DNA of 64,000 bases from positions 1,550,001 to 1,614,000 of the forward strand of contig JAVTLE010000016.1 in NCBI GenBank assembly GCA_033439295.1, written 5' to 3'. This DNA comes from Deuterostichococcus epilithicus (taxonomy: Eukaryota > Chlorophyta > Trebouxiophyceae > Prasiolales > Stichococcaceae). Position numbers and translations under genes: made by a program. How positions within the stretch are numbered: the first letter of the stretch is position 1; every line of letters begins with the position of its first letter. The notes under the pieces were generated by a model. It saw nothing but the letters and a program-made list of their open reading frames with translations, searched no databases and was not told where the DNA came from. Positions 3,301 to 63,388 of the stretch are shown one piece after another.

Positions 3301-6106
3301 CGCAACGCGGCCTACCAGGCCGCCATCGAGCGCGCGGTGAGGCAGCTTCAATCTTGATCCTACTGCTGAAAGCTTGCATGTTTCACAGTGGGGGCTGCGC
3401 AAGGCCCAGCATGTTGGCCCCCCGAACCAGCAGTCAGTGCGCGGCAGTTGATAACTCAAGCTGACCTAGTCCGCGTTTGAGCTGGCAGTCTATCAAATCG
3501 CACACCTGTGCCAGTTGATGTGATGCCAGTATTCAATCTGGCGATGCCATTCTGACGATGCAGCACACCTGCGCAGGTTGCGCTGAAGCGCGCGGTCGGC
3601 TGCGGCCACATCCTGGCGCTGGACATCGGCGCCGGCTCCGGGCTGCTGTCCTTGATGGCCGCCAAGTGCGCTCGCCGCTGCTGCAGGCCGAGATTTGCAA
3701 CAACTGCTGACACTGCAAAACGGAAGCAATCCCTGTTGCCGCTCAATCATCGCATCTGGGGCTTTGAAAACCAGCTTCTGTGTGTTAGCAGGCGGTTGTT
3801 TCACAGACATTTTCAAACTACCACAAACAAAGAGACATGCAATCTCGCCGCTGCAGGGCGGGCGCAGACCAGGTGGTGGCGGCGGAGATGAGCGGCCACA
3901 TGGCGGACGCCGGCGGCGAGGTGGTCGCCGCCAATGGCTTTGGCGCCCGCGTCATGATGATCGACAAGGACGCCCGTCGCATGGACGTGGTGCACCTGCC
4001 TCTTTTAGAGTCCAGTTGGATCCCTAATGGCGTGTGCAGCAAGCAGGACTTGAAGTGGCGCAAGACGAGAGTCAAGGCACTGAATTATGCATGGCATTCT
4101 GTGCAGGTGCGCAAGCCGGACGGCACGCCGCCTGACATGGACCGCAAGGCCGACATACTCGTGTACGAGGTGCGGCAGCCTATTCTGAGGAGCAAATTCT
4201 TTATCTATTCAAGGCAGCAGTGCCCTCTTGGTGCATCATTCATTTCCTGAGCCGCTTGACACCACTGCAGTCCAGCCCTCTGCACTTGAATCTCCACTTT
4301 AGCCCTCTACAAAGCAAGATGGTGAGTGGCTGCATAAGGTCATTACTGTCCTTGCCTCAACCTCCACAGCCGTTCAACACTGTTCTCTTCCCCGTCTGCC
4401 ATTGAGGACGCTGCACCGCTACATTCAGGTGTTCGACTCAGGGCTGATTGGCGAGGGCGCGCTGCACTCAGTGCTTGCCGCGCGATCCAAGCTGCTGGTC
4501 CCCGACGCGCTCATGGTGCCGGCCGCCGCCACCGTCTTCGCACAGCCGCTGCAGCTGCGGCGGCACGGCCGCGCCCGTGGTTTTGACGTGTCCTGTGCCA
4601 ACCGCTGGCACTGGCGTCCCGACTACGAGGGCGTCGAGCTGGGCCTGTGCAGGTGCATTTTCAATGTCCGTGCTCTTTGTTCTTGCAACATGCCAGCGAG
4701 TAGACTGTGCCAGTCATTGGAAAAAAACCTCCCGCTGGAAAGTGCTGGGAGTCGACTTCACTCCAGGGTCGCGCATAGCCTGTGCTGTTGAGAGCTGTAC
4801 GCCAGCTTACCGGGCTCTGCTCACCTCCAGAATCGACGAGCAGACCTTCATGAGGTGGCACCTGACCATGCAATGGCATTCATCTGACAATTCCTAGCGC
4901 CCTGTGTCGGTGCAGAGACGAGTGGACGGCACTGGGGCCGGTCATGGAGGTCATGGGCTTCGACTTCTATGCTGCCGAGGCCAACATGGCGCCGGTGGCG
5001 GTGGAGCTGACAGTGCGCATCACGCAGCCCGGCGTCTGGAACGCGGTCGCCTTCTGGTTCGAGCTGCAGCTGGATGAGGAGACGCGCCTCGACACCAGCC
5101 CCTACTGCGACAAGGTGCACCCTGCATCATGGCGTGCCATGCGGTGGTCTGCAGCACAGAGAAGGGCTAAACATGCCAGCATCCTGTCGCGCCCTGGCCC
5201 ATGTGTCGGGAGCCTGCGGGGAAAGGGAGATGGCGCAAAGCAAGCGGAGCAGTGTGTTGCGCGAGACAGAACGCTACATGGCTGGTAGGTGAGGCCCCTC
5301 TGCAATTCTATGCCAGTCATCTGCAGCAAACACTGGCACGGCATGCCTGCACCTTTGCAGCGGGCATTGCAGTGGCTCAGTACATGAGCGACACATGATG
5401 TTGGTGCCTGCAGGACGGCAACTGGCGGTAGGCGCTGCAGCAACCTCTCACCGGCTTTCTGACGATGACAGTGTCGACTGCAGGGCGGCACCTGGCAGCA
5501 GGCGGTGCAGTGGCTGGAGGAGGTGCGCGTGGCGCCCGGCACGCGGCTGCCGCTGACGGCCAGCCACGACACCTACGGCATTGCCTTTGCCCGCAGCCCG
5601 CCCCCAGTTGACACCGCAGACGAGGCTGCCGGCGCCGCAGGTGCTGCCGCGAAAAGCAGGTCTGCCGGGCAGTGCAGCACGGGAACGGCAGCACTGCCGA
5701 CTGGCGTCCTGCTACAGGTGTGGTCACGGTGCAGATGCACCTGCGACTCGACACTTGCCACAGCTGGTTGTTGCTTCATGCGCACATTGGTTGTAGCGAA
5801 CACTAGACCCGATGAGTACTCAATACAAAACCATTCTGTGCTTTGCCTCGCTATCAGCGCCAATTCAACTTATGAGCCAACCAGCATTATACCGATTAAA
5901 TCTGCTCCGCATCACAGGACCGCGTGTGGGACTCAGCATACAAGCAGCTGGCGGAGCTTTATGGGCAGCTGGCCAAGTCCTGCATCCAGAACCCGCTCGA
6001 GTTCCGGTCGGTGGCGGCCGCGGCGGTGGCATTTGGTGCCCGGCCGCACGACTTCGGGCTCGACACTGAGCAGGCCGTGGAATTCTGCACCAAGATGATG
6101 GCCTGA
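315..6106 (+). CDS. PRMT7: Tandem-module protein arginine methyltransferase, PRMT7-like
   Basis: Multi-exon gene for an S-adenosylmethionine-dependent arginine methyltransferase with two Rossmann + beta-barrel modules. An N-terminal helical, TPR-like stretch is coded at 613-803. Module 1 starts at 975 with a glycine-rich SAM motif (VLVLGAGGGLLAP). Its double-E loop is altered (TDLFDQ...VLGLG, 1745-1970) and its barrel contains WNAVAFWFDLDMG (about 2755-2790). Module 2 runs from 3171: WHFDMLGDAQRNAAY, then LALDIGAGSGLLSLMAAK (3577-3664), an intact double-E loop YEVFDSGLIGEGAL (4160-4460), and a barrel with VWNAVAFWFELQLDEE (about 5035-5085). The last exon begins near 5918 and ends in TGA at 6104-6106. 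Order and motifs match PRMT7; helices before tandem modules also recall PRMT9. The start is taken as the in-frame ATG at 315, but the frame is open upstream, so an earlier exon is possible. Exon-intron borders are inferred from conserved protein and GT/AG signals. Confidence 0.82.
5411..5440 (+). repeat. Intronic copy of acceptor plus exon head (PRMT gene)
   Basis: Bases 5411-5440 match 5481-5510 at 25 of 30 positions, offset 70 bp. The downstream copy is the CAG acceptor and start of the real exon coding GGTWQQAVQW. The upstream copy keeps CAG but soon meets an in-frame TAG, so it is not usable as coding sequence. Confidence 0.75.
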
Positions 6107-6711
6107 GTGCCGGCAGACTGAGGAAAGCACTTTTTGTGTAGATGGCCAGCTTGTCTGTTGCATGTGCAAGGCTGTTGAAGGTGTCACCAGGCCCGCAGTG
6201 CATGGCTGTGGCAGTTCAGCGGCAAATGCAACACGAGCCGGGAGGTTGCTGTGTGGGGAAGACCAACCAACGACGTCTGGACGCTTTACATTGTGCACGG
6301 AGCGAAACCACTACAGCGATCGGGACTGCTTCTGACAGGCACTTGTTCATGGAAGTGATGCCTAGTTCTGGCAGTGCGCAGGACTGCTGACGACACGACA
6401 CAGGCGCTCTGAAACCACAAACACCATGACCTATGTACATAGCTAGGCCGTCTGACGTGAACCCTGATGTCTGGAATCGGCACCCTGTTAGCTAGGAGCC
6501 TGAGAAACCTGAGAAGCACAAGAGTGCGGCAAAGAATGTGCAGCGGCAAGACTCGGCCACGAGGTAGGTGGCGCCATTGCGCCGCAAAGAATGGGTCCAC
6601 CTGACATTCAGGAGCTGCTGCCTCAGGCTGCCGGCCGGCAGGCTCAGGGCTCGGGCCGCTGCACAGGCGCAGCGGTAGTGCCATCTAGTGGCGCCGCGAC
6701 AAGCGCAGCGC
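6107..6711. other. Intergenic region between convergent genes
   Basis: This stretch separates the 3' ends of the arginine methyltransferase gene (+) and the hypothetical gene (-). Only short, non-conserved open frames occur. It should hold both 3' UTRs; I see no gene, repeat or RNA structure in it. Confidence 0.6.
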
Positions 6712-10238: not shown

Positions 10239-13200
10239 ATGGCCAGCAAGGAGGCGCTGCTTGCGGCGGTGGGCAAGCATGCCAAGAAGCTGCAGAAGGT
10301 AGGCATTCGGTCAGCAGATGTGCACGGATGATGTCGATGTTAAGACCCTCTGATGCTGCGTCAACATGGAGTCGTTGTTCAAACCACGTCACAAGGGCCA
10401 TGGCACAGAGGTAATCTCGCAGCACTCCTGCCGGACAGGCGGGTCCTTCCTGGCTGGTCCATCCTGACAGGCGGAAATCGACCTGGTGCATGCTGGACAC
10501 CGATTCGGGCAAGAGCGACTCATCTGGCAGTCTGCTCCCATGATGCAGGCGGTGGGGCAGTCAGGCCCCGGTGCGGCTGACCGCGTCGCCGCACCACTTG
10601 TCCAGGTGCAGCCTCTATCATATACATGTGCCGCAATTGAGTTTGACATGCGTCCCTGACGCATCAACTCTCTGTAGGCAGGCATACTGGGTCCGTCTTC
10701 AGGTGTCCATAACTCTCTGTGCTGGAACGCAGATTGCCGGCATCTTCTGCTCCAATGACCCGACACAGCTAGCTGGCAGCGCTGCATCTCCTGATGAGTA
10801 TGCCAAAACGATGGACATGGTGTGCTCTTGTTCTCTGTCTGAATCATGACACTCAGACGACGTTGGGAGATTCCGGGTGCCTGCTTCAGACAGCCTGCAG
10901 CGCAGTACCAGTGGCTAGCAATGCAATGCCCGACATCACTGCAGCTGGCAATCAAGAACATGTTGGCTTATTGCTGCAGCCTGATCTGGGCTCGCTGTCA
11001 GATTTATAAAAGGAGTGTCCCGTGTCTCAGTGGGTCCAGTCATTCGCATTGCTCAACACCGAAGGACTGCCGCTGCTCGTTGCACTGGTGGGGGTAAAAA
11101 GATAGGACAGGGCGTTGCAGAGGTGGAGTTTGGGTAGCACCGGGCGTCTGCAGGGCGGGGCCTTTGCCGCGAGCTGCTGAGCCATGTGCAGCCCTACCCA
11201 CACCTCGATGCCACGACTCGCTGCTCTCTGGCTAACCAGCACAGGCAACAGGTGCATTTATTTGTGCCAGGAGGCTGACGCACAATCACGACTAATCCGC
11301 AGGTGATCAAGAATGTCAGCAAGGCCATTGCTCGCCAGGACGCTGTCACGTCTGCGGAGAAATCCAGGCCCGGGTCCGTGGCCGCCATCGTGACGGGGCT
11401 GTGCATTGCATGCCGCCCGGGCTCTGATGCGCTGACGCAGGCGCTCGGCCCCGCGGCGCCGCAGGTGCTTTCCCACCGAGCTAGCGAGAGCTGTTATGAC
11501 ACAATGACACACCTGCATCGGTGGCATGTTGCTGCAGGCAGCGTGTGCCAGGGTGCGTGGAGGTGGCCACCGGGTTGTGTAGCGTCCCTGTCAAGGCCTT
11601 GTGTGCCTTCCATCTGCCCTGCATGTCTGCACAGCCGGTGTGACGGCAGTGCGACGATTCATGTGCGATGCTGCAGCTGCTGGCCTGGGCGGAGGCAGTC
11701 GACCACTCCAAGGCCCTGCAAGTACCAGAAGGCGCCGAGGAGTCTACAGCTGCAGCTGATCGGGTGGTGCGTGTTTGCTTGAGCCAACCCGCTCTCATGT
11801 AAGCACATTGTCCCAGTGTTGCACAGCTGGTGCTGCCGCTTCACATCCTCGCTCGCACATCATCCCTCTGGGAAATCGCGCAAAACGTGCTGTAGCGACT
11901 TCACACAGGGTCTGCACTGCTCGCGTCTTGCTCATGACTGCACCCTATCTGCAGTCCATCATCACTCTCTGCTGTGTCATCTTCGCAATAGGCAAGGGCG
12001 AGGCGGCTGCTGCTGGCGTGTGCAGCATGCATGTTTCCCAAGACTGCCGCCTGCACCCTGATTGTACATACCCTGCAGGGCGTTGGTACATGCCTTGCAG
12101 TCCGTGCTCACCCTTGGTGTCGCAGGCGGAAGCGACGCAGCTGCTGGCGCGTGTGCTGCACACCGACCTGCCTGCCAACGCCACCAAGGCCCTGAAGGCC
12201 GACACCACCGCCTTCGACAAGACGCTGAGCCTAGTGCGGACTGAATCAATCATGATAGGGGTGTGTGACGGAAACGTACTGCACAATTCAATGCAAGAGC
12301 CCTGATGGGGGCTGCTCATCAACCTCCATTCACCATTTCGGCGCACCGATTGTCAATATGTCAGAACGTCTGACTGAGCGCCTTCATAGCTCCAAACGAA
12401 TCTGGTCTGGACAGGCAGAGAAGCTGAACGCAGAGCTAGGCGCCTGCTTCAGCTGCAGCTCACACCCCTGGCGGCAACTTGGTTGGTCCTGCTGATTGAG
12501 CTCAATGCAGACAGGCGGAGAGGCTGAACGCGGAGCTGGGATCGCGCCTGGCAGTGGCGCTTGCTGAGTGTAGCGCAGAGGAGAAGCACACCGACGAACA
12601 AGACGACGATAGAGCGGCGGTGGCCGTGACCCGCCAGCTGGCGGAGAGTCTGTCCGCCACGCTGGCGGCGCTGGTCAAGCTGCCGCCGCCCAAGGGGAAG
12701 TGGACCAACGTCCACCGCCGCCGCCTGCTGCAAGTGCGGCAGCCTTCCTGTCTCGGCGGTCAGTCACGCACGAGCAACTCCTTATGACCTGCTTGTCAGG
12801 CATTGTGCCTTGGTGCAATTGCCAGACCTTGACAATGACAGCACGGAAGCATCAAGGTTCCACAACCTGCTGTCGGCTGCAGGTGCTCAGGCACGTGGTG
12901 CAGCACATGACGTCCGCTCCTAGCCTGTGGCGCTACTGGGTGCCCATCCTGGCCGACGCCGCGCCGCCCCTCGTCTCCCAGGCCGCCATCACAAGGTGCT
13001 TGACTATCGTCGAGCGCATTGCATGGTTCACCAGTGCTGACGAGCTTGGGACAGTGGTGCTTGTTGTGATGCGACCATGCTTCCAGGGTGGCGATTGCAG
13101 CATTGACACTGTCAACAAGTAAGGAAGTCTGACAGTGTCTCGCACCAATAATGTGCATGTTGTGCATGACAGGCAGCCCTGGAGTGATGTCTCCGAGTTC

Positions 13201-16200
13201 GTCAATTCGGTCATTGCCGGGCTCAACGCCGAGCTCGACGCCGCCGAAGCGGCGTCTGCCAAGAGTGGCCGCCTTGCCAAGGTTGAGGGTCTGGCAGCCG
13301 CACTGGCGGCAGTGACCGGCGACTCCGCTGCGCCAAAACACGCCCGCCCGCCTGCGGCCGCCGCCACCGCCCAGCGCGCAGCGCTTGCCAAAGTGCTCCA
13401 GGTGTGCCCAAGCGGCAGGCTGCTAGAGGTGCTCTTCAGCTCAAAATGTGCCTTCAGCAGGGAACTGTCTCTGCCACTCTTCACATTGTAGGTCGCTCGA
13501 CTGCGCCTGCGGGCTGTCGTCGACACAAAAGCCATCAGTGTCTGTGGCTGCCTGTTGACGATGCACGATGAAGGATAAACCACCTGCACCTGCAGCATCC
13601 AATCAGCACGCATTTCATGGGCAGCAACAGTGACTGTGTCCACAAACCTGGCACATCTTGTAAGGCTCGAAAACTGTGCAGAGGACGAGCTCTGACGCCG
13701 AATGCGGGACTGCAGAAAAGATTACTGAGATGGTGTGCCCTGCCATACTTGGCAATGGTGTTCAGGTGATGACCAGGCTGCTGGCGAAGTCGGAGCCCAG
13801 CATCCCGGAGTTCGACCTGCCGCTGTACTCCGATGAGCTCGCCGAGGAGACATTCTGGGAGCCCGCCCGTGCTGTCAGCACGGTGGGGGCGCTGCACGAC
13901 GCGGCCGCTGCTGCCGCCGCCGCGCTGGCGGCCGCTGTGTCTGCAGACCTGGCCGCAGCCAAGGCCGGCGGCACGCCTACAGATGCAGACAAGGTGCGCT
14001 CCCTGTCCTCGAGCTCTTAGCCCTTGCAGAACCCCACCTGACGAGCTGAGCTTGGGTCCACCCGAGACCACTGTGTGCTTGCACTAGAGTGTCATGTGAC
14101 TAGTCACTGTGGTGCCAGCTGCATGATGATCCTCCGAGTGTCATAAGAAGGGTCACTTCAGCTGGCCCACAGGCCAAAAGTACCTATGCTGCTGAGGCGA
14201 TCGGGGACATTTGGCTTCAGCGCACGCCATTTGTTTAGCCCAATCTACAGGCTGTATATCTGGCAGCTTCATAAGCTAGGCTGAAGCATTGGCAGCGAGA
14301 CGAGGTGGCTGCAGGCTCCTTCAACGAACTAGTTTCACAATCCCCCCTGATCTCTCCCTGCCAGACTGAGGCGCTCGCGGCCGAGGTGGCGGCGCTGCAC
14401 ACCTACATCCGCTTCTGGCCGGAGCGCCACCTGCGGGGCCGTGGCACCGCGTCGGGGCAGCTGGGCGCGGGCGCCCTCGCCGCCGCCGCCGCGCTGCTCG
14501 CAGCTGCCGATCTGCCGAGCGTGGCCGCGGACACAGGCTCCAGTGCTACCGCCGACCAGGTGTGAGCACAGGCGGCACGGTCTCCTGCGGCACTGCAGTG
14601 TCATCTTTGCAAGTGCTCGGCGCCAGCGCTTGCCGCCTCTGCTGTCGTCATCCTCCAAGTTATGCACTCTGCCAGGTCTGGCAGCTCCCCTGCGGGCACA
14701 CCTGGCCGACTGCATGCCATTGAATGACGACAGCAGTGTCGGCAGGCTGCCATTCATGTTTGCAATTATATTTTGCAGCAGAACTGCAGTAAAGCCCTGG
14801 TTCACCTTCCACTTTAGCTATCTGTCGTCATGCAACGCGCCTGCGGAGTGCAGCAGCTGGCAATCATGGGGATCCGCTGTGCCGGCAACCCGACGTCTTG
14901 TGTCAGCAGTCGTGTCAGCAGTCAGCCCACACACTCCAGCCTTGTTTCGGCTGGACTTCCTGCTAGGACGCCTCTACTGGAAGTTTGCTACTCAAGGGTC
15001 GACATGTGCTGCACTTGTTGTGCAGGTCAGCACCGGCGTCGCCTCCGCGCTGGCGGTGCTGGCGATGGCCACCAAGAACGAGGAATTCCCGCCGCCCGAC
15101 GCGCCGGACGACCACCCGCAGCTGCAGCGCCCCGACCACGTGACGGAGGCATGCAAGGCAAGCTTTCAAGAATACAATTTTCTTCAAGAATACAATTTTC
15201 TAAAATTTCAACCTTGAAGCCGGCTCTGCCAAGACGACCGTGGAGTCAGTGGTCAATCACTGGCTGTGCTCCAGCGCGGAGTCAAATGGTGACTGGAACC
15301 AGATGTTCTGAGTGGATCAGTTACCACCCATGTCCGGTGTGCGCAGGACTTGGTGCCGGGCGCAGGCCCGCCCGCAAGCCTGACGGTGTGCGTCGGCAGC
15401 GCCCCTGACAGCACGAGCGCACCTGGGTGGCTGCAAAGCGCGGCTGACGCTGGTCATGGCCCATACCACATCTGCCTATGTCGGGTTTCCACAGGCGCTG
15501 GCGGTGCTGGCTGGGCATGTGGGAACCTTCAAGGGCGAGGGCGCCAAGGCGGCGGAGGCGGCGGTGGCCGAGGCCTTCGTCAACATCATGCCAGCGCCTG
15601 CCAAGGTGGCGCTGCTGCAGAGCTCTGCCCACCCCTGGATGCAAGCAAGAAAAGCGATAAGCAGGCTTTGCTTCCAGGCCTTACATGAACTAGTCCTTGA
15701 CTGCTCGTGGCATGGGTCCGTACACGCAGCTCCCACAGTGATCTGTCACGCCGCCACACAAGCCTCTGGAAGGGAGCTTGTCCGGGCTTGGCGCCCACGT
15801 GCTAGTCCATCCGCGCAGCCATTATTTCACCGGGTTTCAGCGGCCACAGGATCGGCAGCCTGCCGCCACAGCACACTGATGCACCACCGCCTTCCCTGCT
15901 GGTGCCCAAAGCCTACCCTGTGAATCACCCTGAGACCTCAACACAACTGCTGACTCTCGGCTGCAGGCGCTGGAGAAGTGCATCATGGTGGAGGCCCGCC
16001 TGACGTCTGCACTGCAGTGGCTGCCCCCCTTGGAGGACCTGTGCGCCGCGACTGCCACGGCGGCGGCCATCCCGGGCGTCGCGGCAGCGCTGGCGCCCGG
16101 CGCCCGTGGCGACTGGGCCGCCGCCAGCGATGCGGCGCTGCTCAAGACGCCCGACGGCGAGAGAAAGCGCGTTGACCGCGCCCTGCAGGTGCCCTAAACC

Positions 16201-17842
16201 CTGAACCATGCAGGCCTGCACATGCAGTCCCACGAAAAGACCTTCCTGCGAAGTTCTCGATTCCTGGGGAGCTTTCGATGCGTCGACTGAGCCCTGCTGG
16301 TGCCCTCACTTCTGCAGGTGTTGCATAACTCTGAGGAACATCAATTGTAGGCAGATGTGTGGAATTTGACGGAATCAATCTGCGCTGCACGCCCCAGGCG
16401 CTGCCTGTGGATGAACATACGGCTACTGCAGAACATGCGATGGCAGCTGTGCATGGCTTGGCCAGGTTCACGGATGGGGTAACCGCAGTCGGCCTACTAC
16501 GGTGCTGCAGCCGCTCTGATACATGCCCTGATGCTTGCTGGCAGGCGGTGACGGACGCGCTGGCCAAGACGGAGGTGCCGGCAGCCGTCAAGGAGGCGGA
16601 AGACAGGGTGGCGGCGGAGCGCGGCTTCAACCCGGCGCCTGCCAACGGCGTCGCGCACTCCACCGCCTCGTCCATGGCCAGCGGCCAGGTGCCAGTTCCT
16701 TATAGGGCATTTGGCATGTTTCGGCAGCCGCACACCCCCGTACAGTAGCGGCAGTGAGCCGCCGCAAGCAGTGCTGCAGGTGTGCATGCCATGTACACTT
16801 GCATGTGTATCATCCTCGTCCCCAACGGCGGTGCGCAAATCTGGGGCCGGTCGGCGTACGATCCAGGCGGATTGGTGTGCTGCAAAAAGGTACAAGCAGG
16901 TACAAGCTCCTTGCCTGTGCTTGCTCATTTGAACACCTTGCTACTGCTGCCCCCGCAGGACGACGCCAGCAGCGTGGCGGCCAGCGAGCCGGGCAAGCCG
17001 ATGACGGCTGCAGAGAAAAAGAAGGCCAAGAAGGCGCGTAAGAAGGCCGCTGCCGGCGCCGCTGGCGAGGAACCCGCAGCCGCCGCCGCCGCCGCGGCTG
17101 CCGCTCCGGCCGCCAAAGACGCCGTCGCCGCCAAGCCTGCAGCCGAGCATGCGCCGGCTGCGGAGCCCGAGACGGCCACCGCCGAGGCCGCGCCTGCGCC
17201 TGCGGCGGCGGCGCCTGATGCGGCGGAAGACGCGCCGCCGCCCGCGCAGCCGGCAGAGGTGGCGCCGGGCTGGATGATCTGTCCGCTGAGCAAGGTGGGC
17301 CTGCAATTCTGTGTCCTGAGCCCGCATGCACACGAGCGCGAGGACAGCTGCCGGGGCACACCTTGCGAGCAGTAACGAGGAAGGGGGTGGGACTAGGGTG
17401 CCAACGCCACCGTCAAATTTTTCTCCGGCGCCGAGTTTGCATTTCGACTGTCATTCAGGGCGTCATGCGCGACCCAGTGGTGTGCCAGGACGGCCACACC
17501 TACGAGCGCGCCGCCATCCTGACCTGGCTGGACGATCACGACACGTCGCCGCAGGTGTGACTGCACTGTTCTTAGTTTTTGATGCCGCCAGCGCACATTG
17601 ACCACCTCAAGCTGGCCGCCTGCTTTCGCAAGCCGTTTGCGGTGTCCGCCGTGTTTTTCCAGGCCCCGATTTGAGCTTGTCGTATGGGGAATCGTCATCC
17701 TGTGGCTTTTCGGTTGCCATGGCCCTCACGATGTCCTCGCACTGTGGTGCAGACGGGGGAGCCATTGGACAAGGACAGCCTGGTGCCAAACTACAACCTG
17801 CGCAGCATCATCCGGCAGAAGTTCCCGGACATGGCCAACTGA
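10239..17842 (+). CDS. U-box E3 ubiquitin ligase with long helical N-terminal region
   Basis: The gene starts at ATG 10239 (MASKEALLAAVGKHAKKLQK) and has about 17 exons. The long N-terminal part is helical and Ala-rich with no family I can name; blocks include LCIACRPGSDALTQALGP (11303-11465), WRYWVPILADAAPPLVSQ (12882-12994) and EALAAEVAALHTYIRFWPE (14365-14562). A Lys/Ala/Pro-rich linker follows (16962-17270). The C terminus is a clear U-box split over three exons: MICPLSK (to 17296), then GVMRDPVVCQDGHTYERAA with LTWLDDHDTSPQ (17459-17554), then TGEPLDKDSLVPNYNLRSII and a stop at 17840-17842. U-boxes bind E2 enzymes and pass ubiquitin to substrates; the N-terminal region would be the substrate side (inference). 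The intron after TEACK uses a GC donor at 15158. U-box identity is firm; the joins between N-terminal exons are less so. Confidence 0.85.
12411..12440 (+). repeat. Intronic copy of exon head (U-box gene)
   Basis: Bases 12411-12440 match 12511-12540 at 26 of 30 positions, offset exactly 100 bp. The downstream copy is the acceptor and first codons of the exon coding AERLNAELGSRL; the upstream copy would read AEKLNAELGACF. Confidence 0.75.
15165..15200 (+). repeat. Perfect 18-bp tandem repeat, two units
   Basis: An A/T-rich 18-base unit starting TTCAAGAATACA occurs twice without mismatch, at 15165-15182 and 15183-15200. It sits a few bases inside the U-box gene intron that begins with the GC donor at 15158. 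Confidence 0.9.
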
Positions 17843-42106: not shown

Positions 42107-42209
42107 TTGACTACTCCGGTTTGTGATCGACGCGATGGTCTCCCAGCAGGTGTTCGTTGCTCATAACGTGCAAATAACTACGGTACCTCAAGGCATGTGT
42201 TTGCACCAC

Positions 42210-47814: not shown

Positions 47815-50800
47815 ATGGCGCGCGTGCTGGGCACAGCGCTCGGACCGGTCTTGGGCTTCAGTAACTGGGCGCTGTCGCCGCTGCACCCCGCACCCCGTGC
47901 GCCCGTCCTACCCGTCAAAGGTCCGCTCTATCTCTGTTGCCGGACAAAAGCATGGCAGCTGGGTGCTTGAGCTGCGTTACTATGTCCCGCAACTGGAAAG
48001 GCAGGTGTAGGCTCCCGCCAGGAGTGAGTTAAGTCTTGAAGTTTGCGCGCAGATGCTGTGAAGCCTATGCCAGCGACGCCGGAGCCACAGCTGTTGGAGG
48101 CGCTGCGGCAGCTGGACGCCAACAAGGACGCGTGGGTGGCGCTCAGCGACGGCGACAAGGCCCAGCTGCTGCGCTCGTGCCTGAAGACCACTGCCGAGGT
48201 GCCACCCTGCGCAGAAGTTGCTTCTACGAGCCATAACATGCTGTCAAGATGCAGCCCGACTAGTGCTCTACCGGCCTCTCGTTCTGTGGTCTTGCTAGCT
48301 ACTATAGCATTCACCGAACGCGCCTCACAACCTCTGGTCATGCCAGCAGCGTCCCACCACCACTACAGGTAGCCAAGGAGGCAGCAGAGACGGCTACCAA
48401 GGTCAAGGGCTCCTGGTCCAACGGCATCGCAGAAGAGCACATCGCGTGGGTGCCGCTGGTGTCTGGGCTGCGCGAGTATGCTGAGACGCTGGAGGCGGGC
48501 GGCGCTCCAAAGCCCGCTGGCACGAGGACCCTGCCGAGCGGCCAGCACGTCCTGGACGTCTTTCCGACAGGGTGTGTGGTCGACGACGCTCTTGGGTTTC
48601 AGGGTCGTGTAGCAGATCGCATCCACACGAAAGCTGCAAATGCTTGCAAGGCAGTCGCCTCCGTCTCATCAGGATCTCGACATACCTGGTTGCCTGATTG
48701 GAACTCGCAGTTATCAAACGCCAGCTACATCGTCATGACCAGCAGGTTCAAAGCTTTTCACCAGCCGTGTGTCAACAACGTCCTTCTTACTGGCCGACAG
48801 GCTGGAGGCGCTGCTGTTTGGCGGCTGGAAGGGCGAGGTGTGGGTGGAGCCTGGCAAAGAGCCCACGCAGGTGAGCTGTCAATGTCACATGCAGCCACTC
48901 GGAATGCGAATCCGCAGAGTCGCTGCCATCGCCGGCATGCTGGTCTCGTTCAGCCCCCTCCAGGGTCACCAGAAACTGGCAGAGGGTACTTGCAGCGGCC
49001 GCTTAATGGTCTGACCAGCAGGACAGGCCGGCAGGCCGCCGCCAATGTTCATCGCGGCCATCCTGGAAGTCACAATCCTGAAGTGCGCCCGCGCAGGGGC
49101 AGATTGCGCTGGTGCTGGGGGCGGGCGGTGTTTGCAGTGGCCGCCTCACAATGTGATCAGACGCACGAAAATTGGGCACCACCAATGTGGGACAAGTATC
49201 CCCTGCAGGGCACGATCCGGAAGCGGGCCGGCGGCAGGGGTGAGGTGGCGCTGGTGCTGGGGGCGGGCAACCAGGCTCCGGTGGCGCCGCTGGACATCCT
49301 GCACAAGCTGGTGGCGGAGAACGCGGTCGTCGTCTGCAAGATGAACCCCGTCAACGAATACCTTGGCCCCTTCCTCAGGTGTGCTGGCTGATGCGCAGCC
49401 TTTGCAAAAGCAGATCTGCTTGGCGAGAACCCGAAATGCGTCTTGAAGACCCTGTCCTAAGTGCGTGGCTTGACTCAGGGCGGCCAGCGGCGATCAACGC
49501 CAGAACTCATACTCAGGCATGCGCCTCCCACATTCAGGCGGGCACTGGCGCCGCTGGTTGATGCCGGCTTCGTAGACATCGTGTACGGCGGCGGCAAGGA
49601 GGGCGCCTACCTGTGCAACCACCCCCTAGTGCGCTCACACAATTCATCACTGCTGGCTCATCTTCCAGTGATGTGCTCGCAGCTTCTCGTTAATTGTCTC
49701 AGTGCGAGGACCAACTGGGCCTGCACCATACTTGACCTGCTGCGAAGGGCAGCAAGCATCTCGAGATCGTTACCTTTGCTCGATCAGAAAGCAGTAACCC
49801 TGCAGCAGAGTGTGCCATTCGGTGCACAGGTGGGCAGCATCCTGCTGACCGGGTCCTCGGCAACATATGACGCCATCGTGTGGGGCTCCGACAAGGACAA
49901 GGTCCGCCCAACCTCCCATTGCCCCGGTATGCTGTAACTCACATCCAGGATGCTGCCCTGAGAGCTCCCGCGCCTTCTTGAGTTGTCACAACTCAACGTC
50001 TGTGAGACTCGACTCGCCTGCTGGTCTACTCTGGCGCACGCAGGGAGTCGGTGTCATCCCACATGTTGCCTTGATGCCGCAGACGAGTAGGGCGCTGAAC
50101 AAGCCCATGAACGGCGAGCTGTCCTGTGTGACGCCTTGTGCCATCTGCATATTATTGAAACACTGTCAGAATGGTTGCGCAGAAGAAGAAGGCGCTGGCC
50201 AAGCCGGTAGACGGCGAGCTGGGGTGCGTCACACCGTACATCATCTGCCCTGGCGGCGCCTGGAGCCAGGCCGACCTCGACTTCCAGGCCGGCCAGGTGC
50301 CCTCTTTTCCTCAAAATAGCGTTGTCAAAACCCTGATTATCATCGACCTGATGGGGTTCAGCCCTGTCGAGTAGCTGCGGCCGCAGCGACCTTAACAGAA
50401 GCTCTCCACGCCACTGTGCACTGCAGGCACTGGGTCGGCCTGCGGGTTTGGGAAGCAAGGGATGGGTGCCAAATGCATAGGGACCCAAGAATGCGCAGGT
50501 CTTTCTGTGTGCCAGCAAGCCTCTCGACTGGGTCTCTGCTGCCGCGCAGGTGGTGACAGGGCTGATCCACAATGCGGGCCACAACTGCACCAAGGCGGAG
50601 CTGGTCGTCACAGCCGCGGAGTGGCCGCAGCGGCAGCAGTTCCTGGACGCCCTCAGGTAGCGCCTTCCACCCAAACGGTTACCGCTTTCAGCACGGTCCC
50701 GTGCGCTGTGTTCGCTTGCCTTCCCTTGTCGCACTTCAGCCCCTCCAGCGATGAGCCTGCAATGCGGCCTTTCTGCGTGCGCGCGCCGGCCCAAGGTCAG

Positions 50801-52882
50801 ACCTCCGGAAGCGACTGGCGGATACGCAGCCTGCAGGTGGCTCAGAGCTGTCTGCCAGCGGCTCTGAGTATGCAGCTGTTCACGGTGGACTGCCTGCGGT
50901 GTGTGCAGGAAGCAGCTGGGCAGGGCGGCGCCACGCACCGCCTACTACCCTGGCAGCGAGGCGCGCGCGGACGCCTTCTGCAAAGCCTTCCCAGACGCGG
51001 AGGAGTTTGGCAGCGCCGACGGCAGCGTGCTGCCGTGGCGCTTCAAGGCGGGCCTCAGCCCCCATGAGGTGCTCGCTTGTCTGTCAGGCAATTCCGGGAA
51101 TGTCGCATCCTGTCTCCTCCTGATGAAGCCAAGCTCTCCTGCGGGGTGCTGAGTGTCCAGGACCTCATGCGAACGCTTTGTGTTGGGACAGCTGGCGTGC
51201 TGTGGCTTTGGTGCGGCATGCCACAAAACTGCGGCTGCCCTCGAGCCACAGCAGCTCCTTCCGTTTCCTTGACAGCTGCATTGTGTGCGCCTGGACGCAA
51301 GCAAGGGTTGACCAGGAGAAGTGGTGCGGCGTGCTCCAGGAGGTGGCGTTTGCTGTAGCTCTTGATCCACCCGCGAGACGACTGCCTTGTGCTCATGTGG
51401 TGGCTGGGCTGGCGCCTCACAGGCAAGGACGGGCCAGGAGACTTCGGTGCGGCGCGCTGCAGGCGAGTCCGACCAAACTGTGCTGGTGTGATCTGACGAT
51501 GACCAACCAATCCATGTTGATGCCCCACAGGCGAGGACGGACCAGGAGAACTGGTGCGGCGTGCTGCAGGAGGTGGCGTTGCCCGGGGCGGAGCTGGCCA
51601 ACCCTTCGCTGTTCCTGCCCGCGGCAACGGCCTTCGCGAACGACCGCTGCTGGGGCAACCTGTCCTGCTCGCTCATGGTGCACCCCCAGGTGGGTCCACT
51701 GTTTCGATGACCCATGCAAGCAGCTCCTGACATGTGGCCGTTGCTGCAGCAGCCTGCCCTGTGCACTGTGCCTGCGCCGCCATCTCCCCTGCGGCTTGAG
51801 GGAACGTGTTCTGCTTTCCCGGTGGGAAGCGGCTCTCTTTGGACGTGCCCTCATCTTCCGATCGGCTGCCTGATATCTCGGTATGCCATGCACGGCTCAG
51901 CATTGCCGGCTCCAAGGTGGGCTCAGAAGGTGTGCGACAGTTGCTAGATGGGTTGTGACGGCATGTTCAACGCCCGTTCTTCTTGACTCATACCAAAGGC
52001 AACTCCACTTGGCTGCAGGTCGAGGCGCGCCATGGGGTTGCAGTGGAGGAGGCGATCGCGGGTCTGCGCTACGGCAGCGTGTGTGTCAACGTGACCACGA
52101 TAATGGGCTTCTCCAACACACGCCTGTCATGGGGCGGCTTTGCGGGCAACACCCCCGAGGTGCAGGCCCCAGCCCCCTCCTTGGAAGCAGCTTGGCCGCC
52201 CAAGGCTCCTGTCAGTCTGCAGTTTCCAGGTCCTGGTGATGGGACGCCATTCTGACAGACTTCCTCGTTGTGCAGAGTTTGCTTGCAGACGTATGTAGTG
52301 TCGACACTTTCGTCGACCAGCAGCGTGGGTACTCTGTGGAAGCCCTGGCAGGACATCGCGCATGTCGGATGATGACACCATCACGATGCTGAGGGTCGAC
52401 GCTTCAAACGGGAATCGGGCCCGCTGCTGACCGCAATCCCGCGTGCCACGTCCAACAGGACATCCAGAGCGGCAACTGCGCGACGCACAACACGATGCTG
52501 GTGGACGCGCCACAGAAGAGCGTGCTGCGGGCGCCGTGGCGCATCCGCCCCACGCCCTTCTGGTCGCCGTTCGCCAAGAATGCAGAGGCGCTCGCGCCCC
52601 GCGCCATGACCTTCATGGTGCGCGCCCCTTTTTCTTTCATAAAAAAAAAAACTTTCACAGCCTCGTGCACCAGCACAGGCCCTGACCGATTGACCTGTCC
52701 CTCGTACGCTCATGGTGCCTCGGCCTGGGTATCCGGGTGGACGTGTGTGATGATTCAGACGTCAGAGCCCCTCGCCATGCGCAAGTCCAAAGTTCTAACA
52801 TGGGCGTGTGTTTGCCCTGCTGCAGGCCGCACCGTCGCTGGTCGCCATGACGCCCCTGTCCGTCTCCGCACTGCTGTGCTGA
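47815..52882 (+). CDS. Aldehyde dehydrogenase-fold protein
   Basis: NAD(P)-dependent aldehyde dehydrogenase superfamily member; substrate unknown. Exon 1 (from ATG 47815) begins MARVLGTALGPVLGFSNWAL. Then LEALRQLDANKDAWVALSDG (48052-48199), ADRTHKVKGS-like region KVKGSWSNGIAEEHIAWVP (48369-48572), EVALVLGAGNQAPVAPLDIL and VVVCKMNPVNEYLGPFLR (49210-49378), DAGFVDIVYGGGKEGAYL (49539-49629), the cofactor loop GSILLTGSSATYD (49830-49901), the putative general-base motif GELGCVTPYIIC (50182-50298; canonical ELGGKSP), and the catalytic cysteine in LIHNAGHNCTKAELVV (50549-50657). C-terminal exons: TAYYPGSEARADAFCKAFP (50909-51067), WCGVLQEVALPGAELANPS (51531-51689), LRYGSVCVNVTTIMGFS (52019-52160), 52458-52617, and 52826-52882 ending VSALLC and TGA. 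Three exons have decayed copies in the preceding intron. The divergence of the GELG motif marks a distant ALDH subgroup. Confidence 0.85.
49094..49127 (+). repeat. Intronic copy of exon segment (ALDH gene)
   Basis: Matches 49235-49268 with one gap; the last 21 bases of the block are identical (coding ALVLGAG in the real exon). Offset is about 141 bp. The copy lies in the intron just before the real exon. Confidence 0.75.
50071..50150 (+). repeat. Intronic copy of the catalytic-glutamate exon (ALDH gene)
   Basis: Aligned at a constant 100-bp offset with 50171-50250. In 50091-50120 it matches 24 of 30 bases. It would read ALNKPMNGELSCVTPCAIC, against ALAKPVDGELGCVTPYIIC in the real exon, and also follows a CAG acceptor. 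The frame stays open through the copy. Confidence 0.8.
51301..51350 (+). repeat. First of two intronic copies of an ALDH exon head
   Basis: Matches the real exon head 51531-51580 at 44 of 50 bases, offset 230 bp. The reading frame is still open and would give ARVDQEKWCGVLQEVAF, against ARTDQENWCGVLQEVAL in the real exon. Confidence 0.85.
51423..51470 (+). repeat. Second intronic copy of the same ALDH exon head
   Basis: More diverged copy, offset about 108 bp from the real exon head at 51531. It keeps the CAG acceptor, GGGCCAGGAGA and GTGCGGCGCGCTGCAG blocks, but a small length change puts the second half out of frame. Confidence 0.75.
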
Positions 52883-55324: not shown

Positions 55325-57421
55325 CTAGCTAACATTCCTGCATGCTGCCAGCTGCTGCACGTGGGCGAGCAGCTGCTGCCGCAGCCATTGCGCGACTGCC
55401 TTGGCGCCGTCCAGCGCTAGCTCCATCACCTGGCACAAAATTTGATCATATTGTGAGACATCACCCTGTTGGCTTCATGGTTTGCACCGGAATCTCTGAC
55501 ATGGGGTGCTGGACAAGGTTGTGGCTGCGCATGCCCGACTGCAGCGCAGTGGTAGCAACGACCCAGCCAGAACTGGAGCTTGCGCAGCAAGTGCGCGGCC
55601 GCAGAAACTGCGGCCGGCAGTGGTTGTTTCATCTTCGAAGGGTAACTAAGGACGGCCCCAGACTGCAGCATGGGCGTCCACTCTGTCCTTCGAGTCGCTT
55701 TAAGCATTATCCGTCTTTTCTTCTCAAAATGCAATGCAGTCCCGTGTCAAACACTGGCACTGGGCTGCGGTGGCCTCGCCTAGGGCGTGCAGCATGCACG
55801 CCAACACGTTTGATTGCAAGCAAGCACGACTGAGATCAGCAAACGCTTTCATTCAGAGGATTCACCGTCTCCAGCGTCTCGATGGGCAGCTTCTCGTCCA
55901 GCTGCAGCAGCGGCGTGGTGTCCAGATTGGTGTGCGCCGCCAGCGTCAGCGTCGCGCCGTCGCCAGACTCTTCCAAGTGGTTGAGATCCAGCAGCGGCGT
56001 CGACTCCAGGTAGCCGACGCTGCAGGCCGCGACCATGTCCCGCAGCGGTACGCCTGCGTTGCGCACTCAAGTAGTGGAGGTCAGCTGAGCGGTGAACTTT
56101 GAGCAGCCCAGGCTGCAGGTCGCAGTTGGGTCCTCGCGCGCATGCGAGGATGTCAGAGTGTTACTTTGCTCCATTGAGCGACCATGTCCCTTGCATCCAT
56201 TTGCCCAACACCTGAACATGACCCCCGAGGCCTGTCCGTCTAATTGCGGCCATGCACCTTTGACAGTGGGGCTGCAGAGGCGTGATACATGGTTCACGGG
56301 CGGAAGCACTGCCTCAACTGCTTGACCGACTCAATCAGCCAGGCGTGCCATGTACTTGCTCATGCAGTTGGGGAGGATTGCGCTGTGAAGCACAACCACT
56401 GGGAGCGGCACCCAACCTGCATGTGCCAGCGCAAGCATGGCAGCGTTGATGCAGGCGGCCTGCACGCCGCCGTCGGCCACCAGCACGTGCACAAACACGT
56501 CCACCTGCGACAACGCGCAGCGTTCGTGGCTGCAACAAACATCAAACAAGATCCGATCCTGCTGGATCAGACCCTGGAAGCAGACGCGCGGGGTGCCTTC
56601 CACCATCGGCACGTGCACAAGGACATGCACCTGTGGGACGTGGTCGGCGCTCAAGGCCGCAAACAAGTATAGCACACGCCACAAACAAATCTGCCTGCGA
56701 GATCTGCACGATGGTCAGGACTGCAAGTTGCGTGTATGTCCTTCTCCTGAAAAGCGCTCAGAGGTAGCTCGCGGGCACCGACAAGGCAAGGTTGAGTCAG
56801 ACACGCCAGGCACGTGCCTCCTGTGGCCTCTGCCTGGGCCTCCCTTCGAAGCCTTCCAGAGCTGCTGATGAGCTCTGATGGGCATGCGCCCAACTAGGAG
56901 GGGTGTGACTCCGTCGCATCCGCACAAGCAGTCTCTGCCGCAGGAAGCGTCCCACCTGCGACCGCGGCAGCAGCTCCAGGATGATGGTCTGCTCCAGGGT
57001 GCCCTTCAGCGTCTGGGCCGCCTCCACCGCCCGGCGGTCCGTGCGCCCCGCCCGCCGCTGCTGGCCGCTTGCAAACGCCGCGGAGCCCACGTCGCAGTTG
57101 ACAATCGCACGGTCGTACGCCATCTCGCCTCGGTTCTCCACCTCGTGCGGGCCGTACACTGCCGCCATGACCTGAGCGACCATCCAAAGCGTGATCTTCG
57201 AACTGTAGCGCACTGGCTCACTGGTGGTGCGCTGCGGCAGCCAGGCGCCTGCAGGGGAGCATCAGTGCAGGTGCCGGTCGCGTGCGTGCCTTTGTGTTGC
57301 CCATCTGGAAGAGTGCCGAGCCGTTGGCGCTGGCCAGGCAGCCCAGCTGGCAGTCGAGTCGGCGCAGTTCCTTTGGTCGCCTGCCGTCGAGCCGCAGTCC
57401 CTCAGGACTGACAAACTCCAT
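55325..57421 (-). CDS. RRP41: Exosome complex component RRP41 (EXOSC4/Ski6)
   Basis: RNase PH-like subunit of the exosome ring, which handles 3'-end RNA processing and decay. Five exons: 57421-57290, 57171-56956, 56504-56417, 56053-55866 and 55429-55325. They join in phase to 242 residues, close to the human length of 245. Signatures: MEFVSPEGLRLDGRRPKELR, FQMGNTK joined to VMAAVYGPHEVENRGE, QTIILELLPRSQ, VDVFVHVLVADGGVQAACIN, AAMLALAHAGVPLRDMVAAC, LESTPLLDLNHLEE, and LPIETLETVMELALDGAKAV. The intron after GNTK needs a GC donor (57289). The intron before the third exon holds a decayed copy of that exon's head. It is divergent from the NFD4-like gene. Confidence 0.95.
56603..56630 (-). repeat. 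Intronic copy of exon head (RRP41 gene)
   Basis: On the minus strand, 56630-56603 matches the real exon head 56504-56477 at 22 of 28 bases, offset 126 bp, and is likewise preceded by CAG. It would read VHVLVHVPMVEG, against VDVFVHVLVADG in the real exon. Confidence 0.75.
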
Positions 57422-58393
57422 GGCTGTCGCAGGCCTTCCGGGATCTTCCTGATTGCTGAAGCTTGCTGGAGCCTAGAGCATCGCGTCAGAGTCGCGCCGC
57501 AGCCGGCTTGCTGCCAGATGCAGGCCCGCCGCTGGCTGCAAACAGCTGGCCGGCGGCCTTGAAAGGGTGATCAGCACGACGGCCCGGGGCGCCGATAGTC
57601 GAGGGGACAAAGGATCGAAGTTCGCACGCTTGATTGCGCCTGAAGCCGATAACAGGCGGCGGCGACAGCAGCAGCCGCCAAGCGATTGTCCGGAGGGATG
57701 GCGAATACTGTCAGCAGAGGTCGAAGCTGATGCCGCATTCGTCAGGAGAGCTCGGGGGTAGTCTCAGCGATCTTGACTAGTGCAGCGACTTCTGATGCTG
57801 ATGTGAAGGCCTTGAGAGCCTGGTGCTCTCAGATGTCCCTCCCAAGATCTCCGAAACTTTGCCTGCGCGCACCGACACGAAGTTGCCACAGCAGAGGTAC
57901 TGCCGGTGTCCCTGACCCCCAAACCCTTCACTCTCTGCCCACACAGCACCCGTTTCCTATTGAGCGAATGCGGCTGCTGCCGTCACCGACGAAATCTGGC
58001 TGGGGCATTGCACCGTCGCTGCGACCCTATCGATGCTCGTCGCCTCCGTCACAGCCGAAAGAAGCTACACACGCTTTTAGATCGCTCATGTATGACTGAA
58101 TGAGACAGCGACCAGCTCATCAGCGGACCTGCTTCAAATTTGAAGCCGCTGGCCATCGGCAGTCGAGACCGGGAAGGTCCAAGCCTCAGCGCGAGCCTGG
58201 GTCTGACGCTTGAGGGGGACTGTAGAAAACAGGTACTCCACTGGCATGGTCCTGCACACGGGCGCGCTCGCTGCTGTTGGTTCGCCGCATGAGCACGTGC
58301 ACAAACGAATATGTGCAGCCGCTGGCCGCTGCGAAACATGATCGCCTGCGGCTTGATTCGAGCAGCGTTCTGAACAATCGCAGGATTTGCTCA
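57422..58393. promoter_or_regulatory. Shared upstream region of divergent genes
   Basis: About 970 bp between the start codons of RRP41 (-) and the NFD4-like transporter (+). Both promoters are expected. No gene or RNA could be supported. Confidence 0.5.
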
Positions 58394-61300: not shown

Positions 61301-63388
61301 GCGCACCGTGTCGCTCGTCTTCCTGGGGGCGCTGTCGATCGGCGCCGCGGTGCTCAACGCCTTTGCCGGGGTGCAGCTCCTCAATGCCTCCTCCTTCCTG
61401 GCCGGCTTCGCCTTCGGCGGCATGCAGGGCATCACGCCTGCGATCACCAGCGAGCTCTTCGGGCTGCAGAATTTCGCGACCAACTACGCCATCATCCAGA
61501 TGGGGCCAGCGCTGGGTGCGTGACATTCAATTTCTGCTCCCCGCCTGGCAGCAACCGCGACCATCACCGCCGAATTGAAGCGTGCAACGCCTGCGCCTCT
61601 TCGAGCATGCATATTCTGGAGCAGTTGCACAGGGAAGTTGTCCAGATGGCTGGTCGGGGGCCTCTAAACGCAACCCTGCGTGCCAAGTCAAAAGTTGTGT
61701 GCAGCAACTGCCTTGGTGGCGTCTGCGCTGCCTTAGAAGCAGTGTGTCAGCACAGTGCAGTCGATGCCCTCTAGGTTGACTGTGGCCCCCCATCAGTACT
61801 TGCCGCTGCTGGCGTCCCGTTGAGGGCGTGGCACACTGCGCGAAAGGAGCTCATTACATGTTCTGCCACACCGGTGCAGGCAGCTACTTCATGGCGACAA
61901 AGCTCGCGGCGGCGATGTACAACTATGTCATGCGGCAGCAGGGGCATGCGCACTCGTGCCGCGGGCCTTCATGCTTCCGGTGGACCTTCCTGGTGGTGGC
62001 GGCGTTGTGCACCGTCGCCACCTGCCTGGCGCTGCTGCTGTGGTACCGCAGCCGCGCCGCCTATCGCAGCGTCATCAAGGTGGGTGCTGGCTCCTGCGCC
62101 ACCTGCGTTGTCCGCCCCTCTGTGCCTCGCGTCCTTCCTCTCCCATGCAGCGGCCTATATGCTGGGGCGTGGCTGTGCTGGTTTGTTCACGCCTACTCAC
62201 AGCTCGGAAATGTCATCGTGAGCGGACCCGTCCCACAGTGCACCCGGGTGCTGCGGATGAACAAGGCGATCGTCAACAGAGCGGCTGATTCCTGTCTCCA
62301 GTCTCAAGCGCTGGACTCGCACACAGGCGACGATGGCGGAGCTCAACGAGCGGGGCATGGAGGCGGAGATGGAGACGCCCATTTCACGAGGGGAATCAAG
62401 GATGCAGGGCACAGACCTGCACAACCAGAAATGTGCCGCCGGGTCGCAGGTGATGATGGCGGAGCGCATGAAGCGGGGCATCAAGGCCGAGATGGAGGAG
62501 GCGCGCGAGATCCTGGACGCCTACGTGGAGGAGAACAGGGCGCTGGTGGACCTGCTGGCCAAGGGGCGGCGCCACGTGCAGGACCTGCAGCTCGCAGCGT
62601 CGACATTCAAGCCGGAGGACCCCGACGAGGCGAACATGGCGAGGGTGGGTGCACATCCCCTTTGTTCTCGTCCCAGCCCCTGCGTTTGGGCGTCAGGAAG
62701 CGCCACCAGCAGGCTCTGCTCGGTGCAAGGGGCTGCCAGGGGCTGCAGCCAATACCCCCCGGGCGAGGGAATGAGTCATGGCGGAGTGGCGCATGTAACG
62801 GAGGCTGCTGCCGCCAGCCGTTGGCACATCACCCTTGAAGACGCAGTTGCATTCCTGCTGCACAATCACGACTGGGCTTTCGACTGGATGTTTTTGTGGA
62901 ACTGCGCATGGCGCAGGAGGAAGGACATTTGCCGGCACTGTCGAACCGCGCGCGAGCGCCAGGGCATTGTTGCGCAGGTGGTGCGGGAGCTAACAGTCAG
63001 ATGGAAGGGCGCCATACGGGACTTCTGCCTACACTGGCGCACTGTGCCCAGCTGCTCTGACCAGCGATCGGCTCCCGATTCGCTGCGTCACCCTGAGTCG
63101 CTCTGTCTTGTGCAACAGGTGGTGCGGGAGCTGACGGGGCTTGTGGAGGGCGCCAACGCGCTGCTGTCTGGCTCTAAGGGTTTAGAGCACAAGTACCTGG
63201 CACTGCCCAGCTATGCCAGCCAGCGGCTCAGTCTGGCATTGGAAGCGGACCCCAACGCGGGGGCAGCCGGGCGGCCAGCGGGGCAGGCGGAGCTCACAGG
63301 CCCCCGCACCGGCGGCGCGACGCACCGGCTATACCAGTCTGGCGGCCGGAGCGGCCGGCGCTCCGACCCTCAGCTCGAGGATGTGTGA
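58394..63388 (+). CDS. Nodulin-like/NFD4-type MFS transporter with C-terminal helical extension
   Basis: Exons 58394-58527, 58681-58785, 58986-59183, 59393-59588, 59885-60106, 60383-60613, 60819-60907, 61262-61515 and 61880-62079 join in phase to 543 residues, the usual size of the plant NFD4/Nodulin-like MFS family. Landmarks: MADNAPTGFYWSKWLTFSFA, LSSGLGYTFSIYSTDLK, GLGTACNVGGYTPLLAGLFY, NGQTWYETAGLVTSVRNFE, GTVIGILKAFLGLSASAY, EPDAIKFLKI, a Gln-rich loop around QGQQQSQQQARQ, SADFWMLFAINGICSGAGL with LTLLNNVSQQ, FVSLFSVANCVSRLLAG, FIPDRLIKVYSAPR, and FGGMQGITPAITSELFGLQN. The last transporter exon has no stop near its end, and its phase-0 GTGGGT donor can splice to 62450-62644 and 63119-63388, adding about 154 helical residues. 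Substrate unknown; relatives are linked to nuclear fusion and to vacuolar or plastid transport in plants. Confidence 0.85.
62327..62377 (+). repeat. Intronic copy of exon head (NFD4-like extension, first exon)
   Basis: Matches 62450-62500 at 40 of 51 bases, offset 123 bp, with its own CAG acceptor. It reads MAELNERGMEAEMET, against MAERMKRGIKAEMEE in the real exon; the frame remains open. Confidence 0.75.
62450..63388 (+). other. Two coiled-coil exons: C-terminal extension or a separate small gene
   Basis: Exons 62450-62644 (MKRGIKAEMEEAREILDAYV, then ENRALVDLLAKGRRHVQDL) and 63119-63388 (VVRELTGLVEGANALLSG, then SKGLEHKYLALPSYASQRL, ending at TGA 63386-63388). Both are phase 0 and highly helical. 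They fit as the 3' end of the NFD4-like gene because that gene lacks a stop before 62079. A separate gene starting at ATG 62453 or 62456 cannot be excluded. Confidence 0.6.
62978..63014 (+). repeat. Intronic copy of exon head (NFD4-like extension, second exon)
   Basis: Matches 63119-63155 at 27 of 37 bases, offset 141 bp; the first 14 bases after CAG and the final GGGCGCCA are identical. It follows its own GCGCAG acceptor. Confidence 0.7.

Follow-up and report, generated by a model that had tools for sequence, protein, structure and literature searches.

Repeated local copies of exon ends in the introns of Deuterostichococcus epilithicus

In the genome of Deuterostichococcus epilithicus, exon ends have been duplicated locally, and repeatedly, into the introns that flank them. 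A copy of the exon's own head lies in the preceding intron at 26 of 417 acceptors, while 0.33 would be expected, and a copy of the exon's own tail lies in the following intron at 10 of 406 donors, with 0.45 expected. In the part of the genome that we sampled, this corresponds to a head copy in about one intron in sixteen. On balance, we think that recurrent short duplications of exon ends, with decay of the inner copy, lengthen introns in this genome.

Copies of exon ends in flanking introns

The window is a 64-kb stretch of DNA (JAVTLE010000016.1:1,550,001-1,614,000) from a genome of 46.8 Mb in 21 contigs. We added a sample of twenty 10-kb pieces from 16 contigs, two of which adjoin the window, for a total of 264 kb or ~0.6% of the genome. 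The genes are GC-rich and dense in introns, as in a green alga. (L009, L010, L014, and L019, below, are 10-kb samples.) Genes were predicted with a home-made gene finder, which was self-trained on the sequence and which resolves conflicts at the level of exons. Across the 264 kb, it predicted 493 exons and 341 introns, with a median intron length of 224 nt. The self-training reached a splice consensus of MAG/GTGCG for donors and TGCAG/G for acceptors (the slash marks the splice junction). In the window and the samples, ~7% of donors are GC donors, the polypyrimidine tract of the acceptors is weak, and CTNAC is enriched at -20 to -50.

To search introns for copies, we used 281 of the 341 introns, including 72 in the window. 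The other 60 were dropped because they were shorter than 80 nt or longer than 900 nt, because their flanking exons were under 50 nt, or because the coding score was below 6. The exons behind the 417 acceptors and 406 donors were filtered likewise, by length and coding score. As a control, the heads of other (unrelated) exons were matched to the same introns. At a score of at least 28, 18 of the 281 introns contain the head of their own next exon, while 0.25 would be expected from other heads, and 6 of the 281 contain the tail of their previous exon, with 0.3 expected. Exon ends that do not border the intron, be it the preceding exon's head or the following exon's tail, gave no hits in the 281 introns at this threshold. 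Inverted heads gave none in the 281 introns at a score of 28 and three at a score of 24.

Our sets of head copies are nested. The 18 were found with a head query that includes TGCAG; 19 were found with either the TGCAG query or an exon-only query; and the 26 are the widest set, which considers every acceptor or donor that is flanked by at least 80 nt (for acceptors, non-exonic sequence upstream). The excess over unrelated heads is clear for both the 18 and the 26. The 26 head copies are spread over 12 of the 21 sequences and over 9 of the 16 sampled contigs. Their offsets range from 62 to 230 nt and are within 92-140 nt for 18 of the 26. We also scanned the 264 kb, without reference to any annotation, for direct repeats with at least 24 matches in 30 positions. 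These occur at a rate of 0.62 per offset at offsets of 100-150, and of 0.002-0.011 per offset at offsets of 1000-4000.

A preliminary description of the window had listed nine pairs in which a second, diverged copy of an acceptor and its exon head lies upstream of the acceptor itself. All nine show similarity, and in seven of them the listed copy is where the exon head aligns best within the 350 nt upstream. The remaining two pairs are clear in an ungapped display: for 5411/5481, the best alignment fell on a third, weaker place near 5331, and for 51423/51531, it went to the copy at 51301. Copies on the donor side, which were absent from that list, exist as well. Copies of exon ends in flanking introns are thus confirmed as a genuine observation. 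The features in the window are:

5331-5392 (+): possible further, weaker copy of the head of the exon at 5484 (local alignment score 24 with +1/-1 scoring; BLAST of the upstream flank, E = 0.044)
5409-5440 (+): copy of acceptor TGCAG and exon head, in the intron before exon 5484-5717 of a PRMT7-like gene; one in-frame stop
5484-5717 (+): exon with copied head in the PRMT7-like gene; a real exon by gene model and PRMT9/PRMT7 homology
12410-12440 (+): copy of acceptor and exon head in a U-box protein gene, from alignment
12515-12733 (+): modelled exon with copied head; this gene's predicted protein has its U-box close to the end
16280-16305 (+): donor-side copy, in the following intron, of an exon tail and its donor (16169-16194)
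26711-26751 (-): donor-side copy of an exon tail whose own donor is at 26824
49069-49126 (+): exon-head copy with AG lost and with intron-side similarity, in an aldehyde-dehydrogenase-like gene
49209-49378 (+): modelled exon with copied head, acceptor at 49209; Aldedh domain in the predicted protein
50078-50121 (+): copy of acceptor and exon head, before exon 50183-50296
50183-50296 (+): modelled exon with copied head (gene model and domain search)
51301-51350 (+): first exon-head copy, AG lost, before exon 51531-51689
51414-51441 (+): second copy, acceptor and head of the exon at 51531; in-register similarity ends after ~28 nt
51531-51689 (+): modelled exon with two copies of its head
56595-56633 (-): copy of acceptor and exon head in an RRP41-like gene, from alignment
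56417-56504 (-): exon with copied head in the RRP41-like gene; a real exon by gene model and RRP41 homology
62324-62374 (+): upstream copy of acceptor and head of 62450; same frame, both copies open, could be coding
62975-62994 (+): upstream copy of acceptor and head of 63119; same frame, both copies open, could be coding

Homology speaks to the splice junction itself in two of these genes. For the PRMT7-like gene, similarity to PRMT9 extends on both sides of the 5484 junction, with a gap of two residues at that point, and the RRP41-like protein aligns without gaps to human RRP41 across the junction at 56504. In the other window genes with copies, the U-box, Aldedh, and Nodulin-like/MFS domains identify the genes and do not prove the junctions.

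Three of the nine pairs need amendment. At 49094/49235, the copy is present, but the acceptor is modelled at 49209 and the copy lacks the AG; similarity at this copy spans -89 to +60 (intron-side p = 0.005). The pairs 62327/62450 and 62978/63119 (offsets of 123 and 141) are similar as described, but the sequence alone does not mark them as decayed intronic copies: they are open and in frame throughout, so splicing may in fact use the upstream acceptor. Because the gene finder begins these exons at the upstream copies, these two pairs lie outside the 26. The coding score per base, between the copies versus in the exon beyond, is 0.085 vs. 0.180 for 62327 and 0.037 vs. 0.103 for 62978. The window also has a 71-nt direct repeat at 45832-45987 (offset 85, 82% identical), which is outside the set of exon-end copies.

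Decay of the copies and intron length

The upstream copies had been described as decayed, and this is borne out by the 19 copy alignments. At the three codon positions, identity is 0.80, 0.81, and 0.73; the changed codons comprise 84 non-synonymous and 50 synonymous changes; the copies carry 5 stop codons; and 9 of the 19 have a frameshift. Changes from GC to AT number 87, versus 49 in reverse. These changes are the pattern of an unconstrained copy beside a constrained exon.

Introns with a head copy have a median length of 369 nt (n = 19), versus 219.5 nt for the 254 introns without one (p = 2e-8), although this difference is partly forced, since short introns cannot hold copies at such offsets. 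With the offset subtracted, the median of the copy-bearing introns falls to 252 nt, and they no longer differ significantly from the other introns (p = 0.12). Introns with copies are therefore longer by about the offset, in keeping with the earlier suggestion that the upstream copies are a source of intron growth. Head copies are found in 15 of the 58 introns of at least 300 nt and in 0 of the 98 introns of 80-200 nt. With head or tail copies counted together, the fractions are 19/58 at 300 nt or more, 5/125 at 200-300 nt, and 0/98 below that. Of the longer introns examined, roughly one in three thus bears a legible trace of the step by which it grew.

Origin of the copies

We propose that short local duplications, with a unit of ~60-140 bp, span an exon end, mostly on the acceptor side. 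The splice site beside the intact exon stays in use, as homology shows in the two genes that we checked and as the gene models indicate elsewhere. The inner copy would be left in the intron, where it would decay, and the intron would gain ~100 bp, which the intron lengths support. Repeated rounds would give rise to small arrays, such as those at three of the loci. We infer that each event began as a tandem duplication that took in both intron tail and exon head, and that the inner copy then loses its intron side faster than its exon side. The arrays and the intron lengths support a tandem origin. A candidate cause for the loss of intron sides is deletion that silences the competing acceptor. 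Such silencing would fit the direction of one comparison, although the difference is not significant: the intron side is kept in 4 of 7 copies that have lost the AG and in 5 of 19 copies that have kept it (p = 0.19). With regard to possible loss of the branch point at the inner acceptor, the CTNAC motif is found at 7/26 inner copies, 10/26 real acceptors of the same introns, 91/391 other acceptors, and 223/1842 random intronic CAGs. Alternatively, recombination might re-homogenize the heads and not the flanks, or part of the effect might come from many events being of one older age. Points against our proposal are that some tails in the arrays do not match, and that inner acceptors with an intact AG still have good scores (4.20 vs. 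5.39, n = 19).

The largest array has five copies and lies on the minus strand of L014 (6652-7290), with acceptors at 7232, 7141, 7018, 6897, and 6779, or spacings of ~91-123 nt. Nearest the exon, two copies make up a complete tandem unit of 118 nt, which contains a CTGAC motif that resembles a branch point; their tails agree at 83% over 53 nt. The outermost copy has a tail similar to those of the two youngest copies (p = 0.003-0.005), but those of copies two and three match no others in the array. L019:5374-5760 has four copies of acceptor and exon head, at 5374, 5496, 5611, and 5714. The last three tails are mutually similar (p = 0.005-0.033), and the first does not match the other tails. 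(Three of these copies were predicted as short exons because the head contains CTGCAG/GT at +39.) On the minus strand of L009 is an array at 6966, 6848, 6782, and 6716, in which the last two tails match, with a 66-nt unit (p = 0.003), and the first two do not.

Donor-side cases outside the window, all on the minus strand, are at 7284 and 6581 in L009, at 9665 in L010, and at 5069 in L014. In these, a copy of the exon tail, mostly along with the GT core, sits 95-138 nt inside the following intron. L009 7283-6717 is the only listed intron with both a head copy and a tail copy, which are ~290 nt apart. An origin from processed transcripts (cDNA) predicts the tail of the previous exon beside the head copy, which is not so in the listed introns. 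Recursive splice sites are another poor fit, as only 3 of the 22 listed head copies have GT at the start.

Joint duplication of intron tail and exon head should leave the intron side more diverged than the exon side, because both intron copies drift while only one of the two heads does. We simulated duplication and decay on real introns, with assumed rates (the substitution pattern, and indels at 0.12-0.3 times the substitution rate) and with 45 nt of tail required in the acceptor case. With a constant birth rate, intron-side homology is present in 90-94% of the detected copies. At a fixed divergence, the share is 87-92% for k of 0.2, 43-59% for k of 0.3, and 21% for k of 0.4. Among the actual copies, intron-side homology is seen in 3 of 19 at p < 0.05 and in 9 of 26 at p < 0.1. 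A more loosely placed test, of the stretch between the copies against up to 300 nt upstream, gives 6 of 26 at p < 0.1. In aggregate, intron-side similarity is weak (p = 0.022 over 19 copies; combined p = 0.06). For donor-side copies, intron-side similarity is seen in 1 of 10 at p < 0.05 and in 2 of 10 at p < 0.1.

These low shares raise the possibility that exon ends are copied alone, together with the splice core (roughly -5 to +40 at acceptors and -45 to +6 at donors), by templated repair or by some process tied to splice sites. The edge of the copies at acceptors is indeed sharp: with 36-nt windows and a score of 26, hits number 2/280 for -40..-4, 21/281 for -4..32, and 1/279 for 20..56. 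The donor edge mirrors this more weakly, with a peak of 7/281 at -32..4 versus 0.8 in the control. Also, the 60-nt head in L014 8484/8355 is 92% identical while its flank is unrelated, with no intron-side similarity, and the donor-side copies mostly lack an intron side. However, copying of exon ends alone does not account for the intron-side similarity in the three arrays and in 9 of the 26 head copies, or for introns that grow by about the whole offset instead of by a short head. Furthermore, no DNA-level mechanism is known that is tied to splice sites. We consider this explanation unlikely.

Another alternative is the account given in the preliminary description, in which intron tail and exon head are duplicated in tandem and the upstream copy then decays. 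With neutral decay, such events could have come steadily or in one older burst (k of ~0.25-0.3). The adjacency of the copies, their decay, the growth of the introns, and the full tandem units in L014, L019, and L009 all agree with this account, which is supported in part. What does not agree is the intron side (9/26 instead of ~90%), the kinds of repeat pairs, and the preponderance of heads. At offsets of 60-150, we observed 25 exon-intron pairs, 2 intron-intron pairs, 9 exon-exon pairs, and 8 others. The steady-rate simulation gave 148 intron-intron vs. 116 exon-intron pairs, and the simulation with a single age of k = 0.3 gave 20 vs. 143, which is near the observed 2 vs. 25. The missing intron sides and the deficit of intron-intron pairs count strongly against a steady rate. 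They count less against an older burst, because a k of 0.3 lowers both the intron-side share (to 0.43-0.59) and the intron-intron pairs; even so, 3/19 and 9/26 are still low. The copies sit more tightly at the splice site than steady-rate duplication and decay predicts.

The age of the copies can also be judged from their scores. The excess of heads over the control is 17.8 at a score of 28 and 20.6 at a score of 20. The predicted excess at a score of 20 is 23 for k of 0.2, 28 for 0.25, 35 for 0.3, and 55 for 0.4, so the distribution of head scores fits a copy age of k ~0.2-0.25. Ages of 0.25-0.3 are disfavored only moderately, because the error in the score-20 count is ~6. A single old burst at k of 0.4 would fit the missing intron sides, but its predicted excess of 55 is far from the 20.6 that we see.

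Heads outnumber tails, 26 to 10, which is the opposite of the simulations. Tails exceeded heads by about threefold or more at every age tried (87 vs. 29 at a steady rate and 117 vs. 26 at a single age of 0.3). No version of the simulation reproduces the head bias, given the rates that we assumed. Taking these results together with the score-20 excess, we think that purely neutral tandem duplication is quite unlikely.

The copies might instead be maintained, either because they serve as regulated alternative acceptors or as decoys, or because gene conversion keeps correcting the heads from the exon. This would explain why heads stay similar while flanks often do not. The cores of inner acceptors that have kept the AG score 4.20 (vs. 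5.39, n = 19), and the 62327 and 62978 pairs in the window are in frame and open. On the other hand, the identity by codon position, the excess of non-synonymous changes, the stop codons, and the frameshifts (see above) run against it. Use of the inner acceptor would shift the frame in 20 of the 26 cases and would add a stop in 2 more, which leaves 4/26 open and in frame; these counts are biased, because the gene finder absorbs open in-frame copies into exons (as at 62327 and 62978), so the 4 is biased low. With that bias, protein isoforms from inner acceptors look uncommon. If heads were corrected from the exon, they might be mosaics, but the 5' half (0.788) and the 3' half (0.806) give no such signal. 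Maintenance by function or conversion therefore seems very unlikely.

Finally, although the sequence is GC-rich, codon bias is strong, and the gene finder is home-made, the controls (0.25 and 0.33 vs. 18 and 26) and the same peak of offsets in the annotation-free scan leave chance, base composition, or errors in the gene models as a hardly credible explanation.

Relation to known routes of intron growth

The lengthening of existing introns is mostly explained by transposons and by general drift. Though we think it rather unlikely, a process tied to splice sites, mainly acceptors, might copy exon ends and their splice core into the neighboring intron, or might protect such copies from loss, so that introns in this lineage would grow by dead exon ends and not by random duplication or transposons. 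Regardless, the sharp edge of the copies, the scarcity of intron-intron duplications, and the bias toward acceptor over donor copies are quantitative facts that models of intron growth must meet. All three lend themselves to testing wherever a genome has good annotation and RNA data.

In the titles and opening lines of abstracts that our literature search covered (with subscription journals largely outside), copies of exon ends are not described as a main route of intron lengthening. Tandem duplication of exon sequence that bears a splice site is among the accepted ways in which introns are gained (PMC3443670, PMC2891723). In the accounts of intron gain by AGGT-bearing tandem duplication (PMC2891723, PMC3443670, PMC4974935), as here, a duplicated splice site resolves the duplication and the protein is unchanged. 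In contrast, the AGGT model puts the copy of the exon head at the start (the 5' end) of the new intron, while our introns are 226-567 nt long and the copies lie 62-230 nt before the acceptor. Because there is no new intron and the copy is nearer to the 3' end, we view exon-end copies as a variant of intron gain by tandem duplication.

Introner elements, as summarized in PMC9860276, are similar in being a genome-wide source of intronic sequence. They differ in that the stretch between the copies has just one match in our genome in the two cases searched (the search skips very common words). Also, when the 26 inter-copy stretches were compared to the 264 kb, only short matches were found (the best had E = 0.003 over 23 nt), so we rejected an origin from transposons or introners. 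Inverted copies of the inter-copy stretch nearby scored like the control, with a single control for each.

Intron gain in Daphnia by repair of staggered breaks, as sketched in PMC3443670, leaves short direct repeats, and the likeness is that repeats flank the inserted intronic sequence. In our case, the repeats are mostly 25-60 nt and are anchored on an existing acceptor, and a foreign insert is not shown. Lastly, small intragenic tandem duplications whose extra material is spliced out (as cited in PMC3443670) have that splicing in common with the present case. The difference is that we see no new intron: an existing intron is lengthened, and a copy of the exon end is left behind in it.
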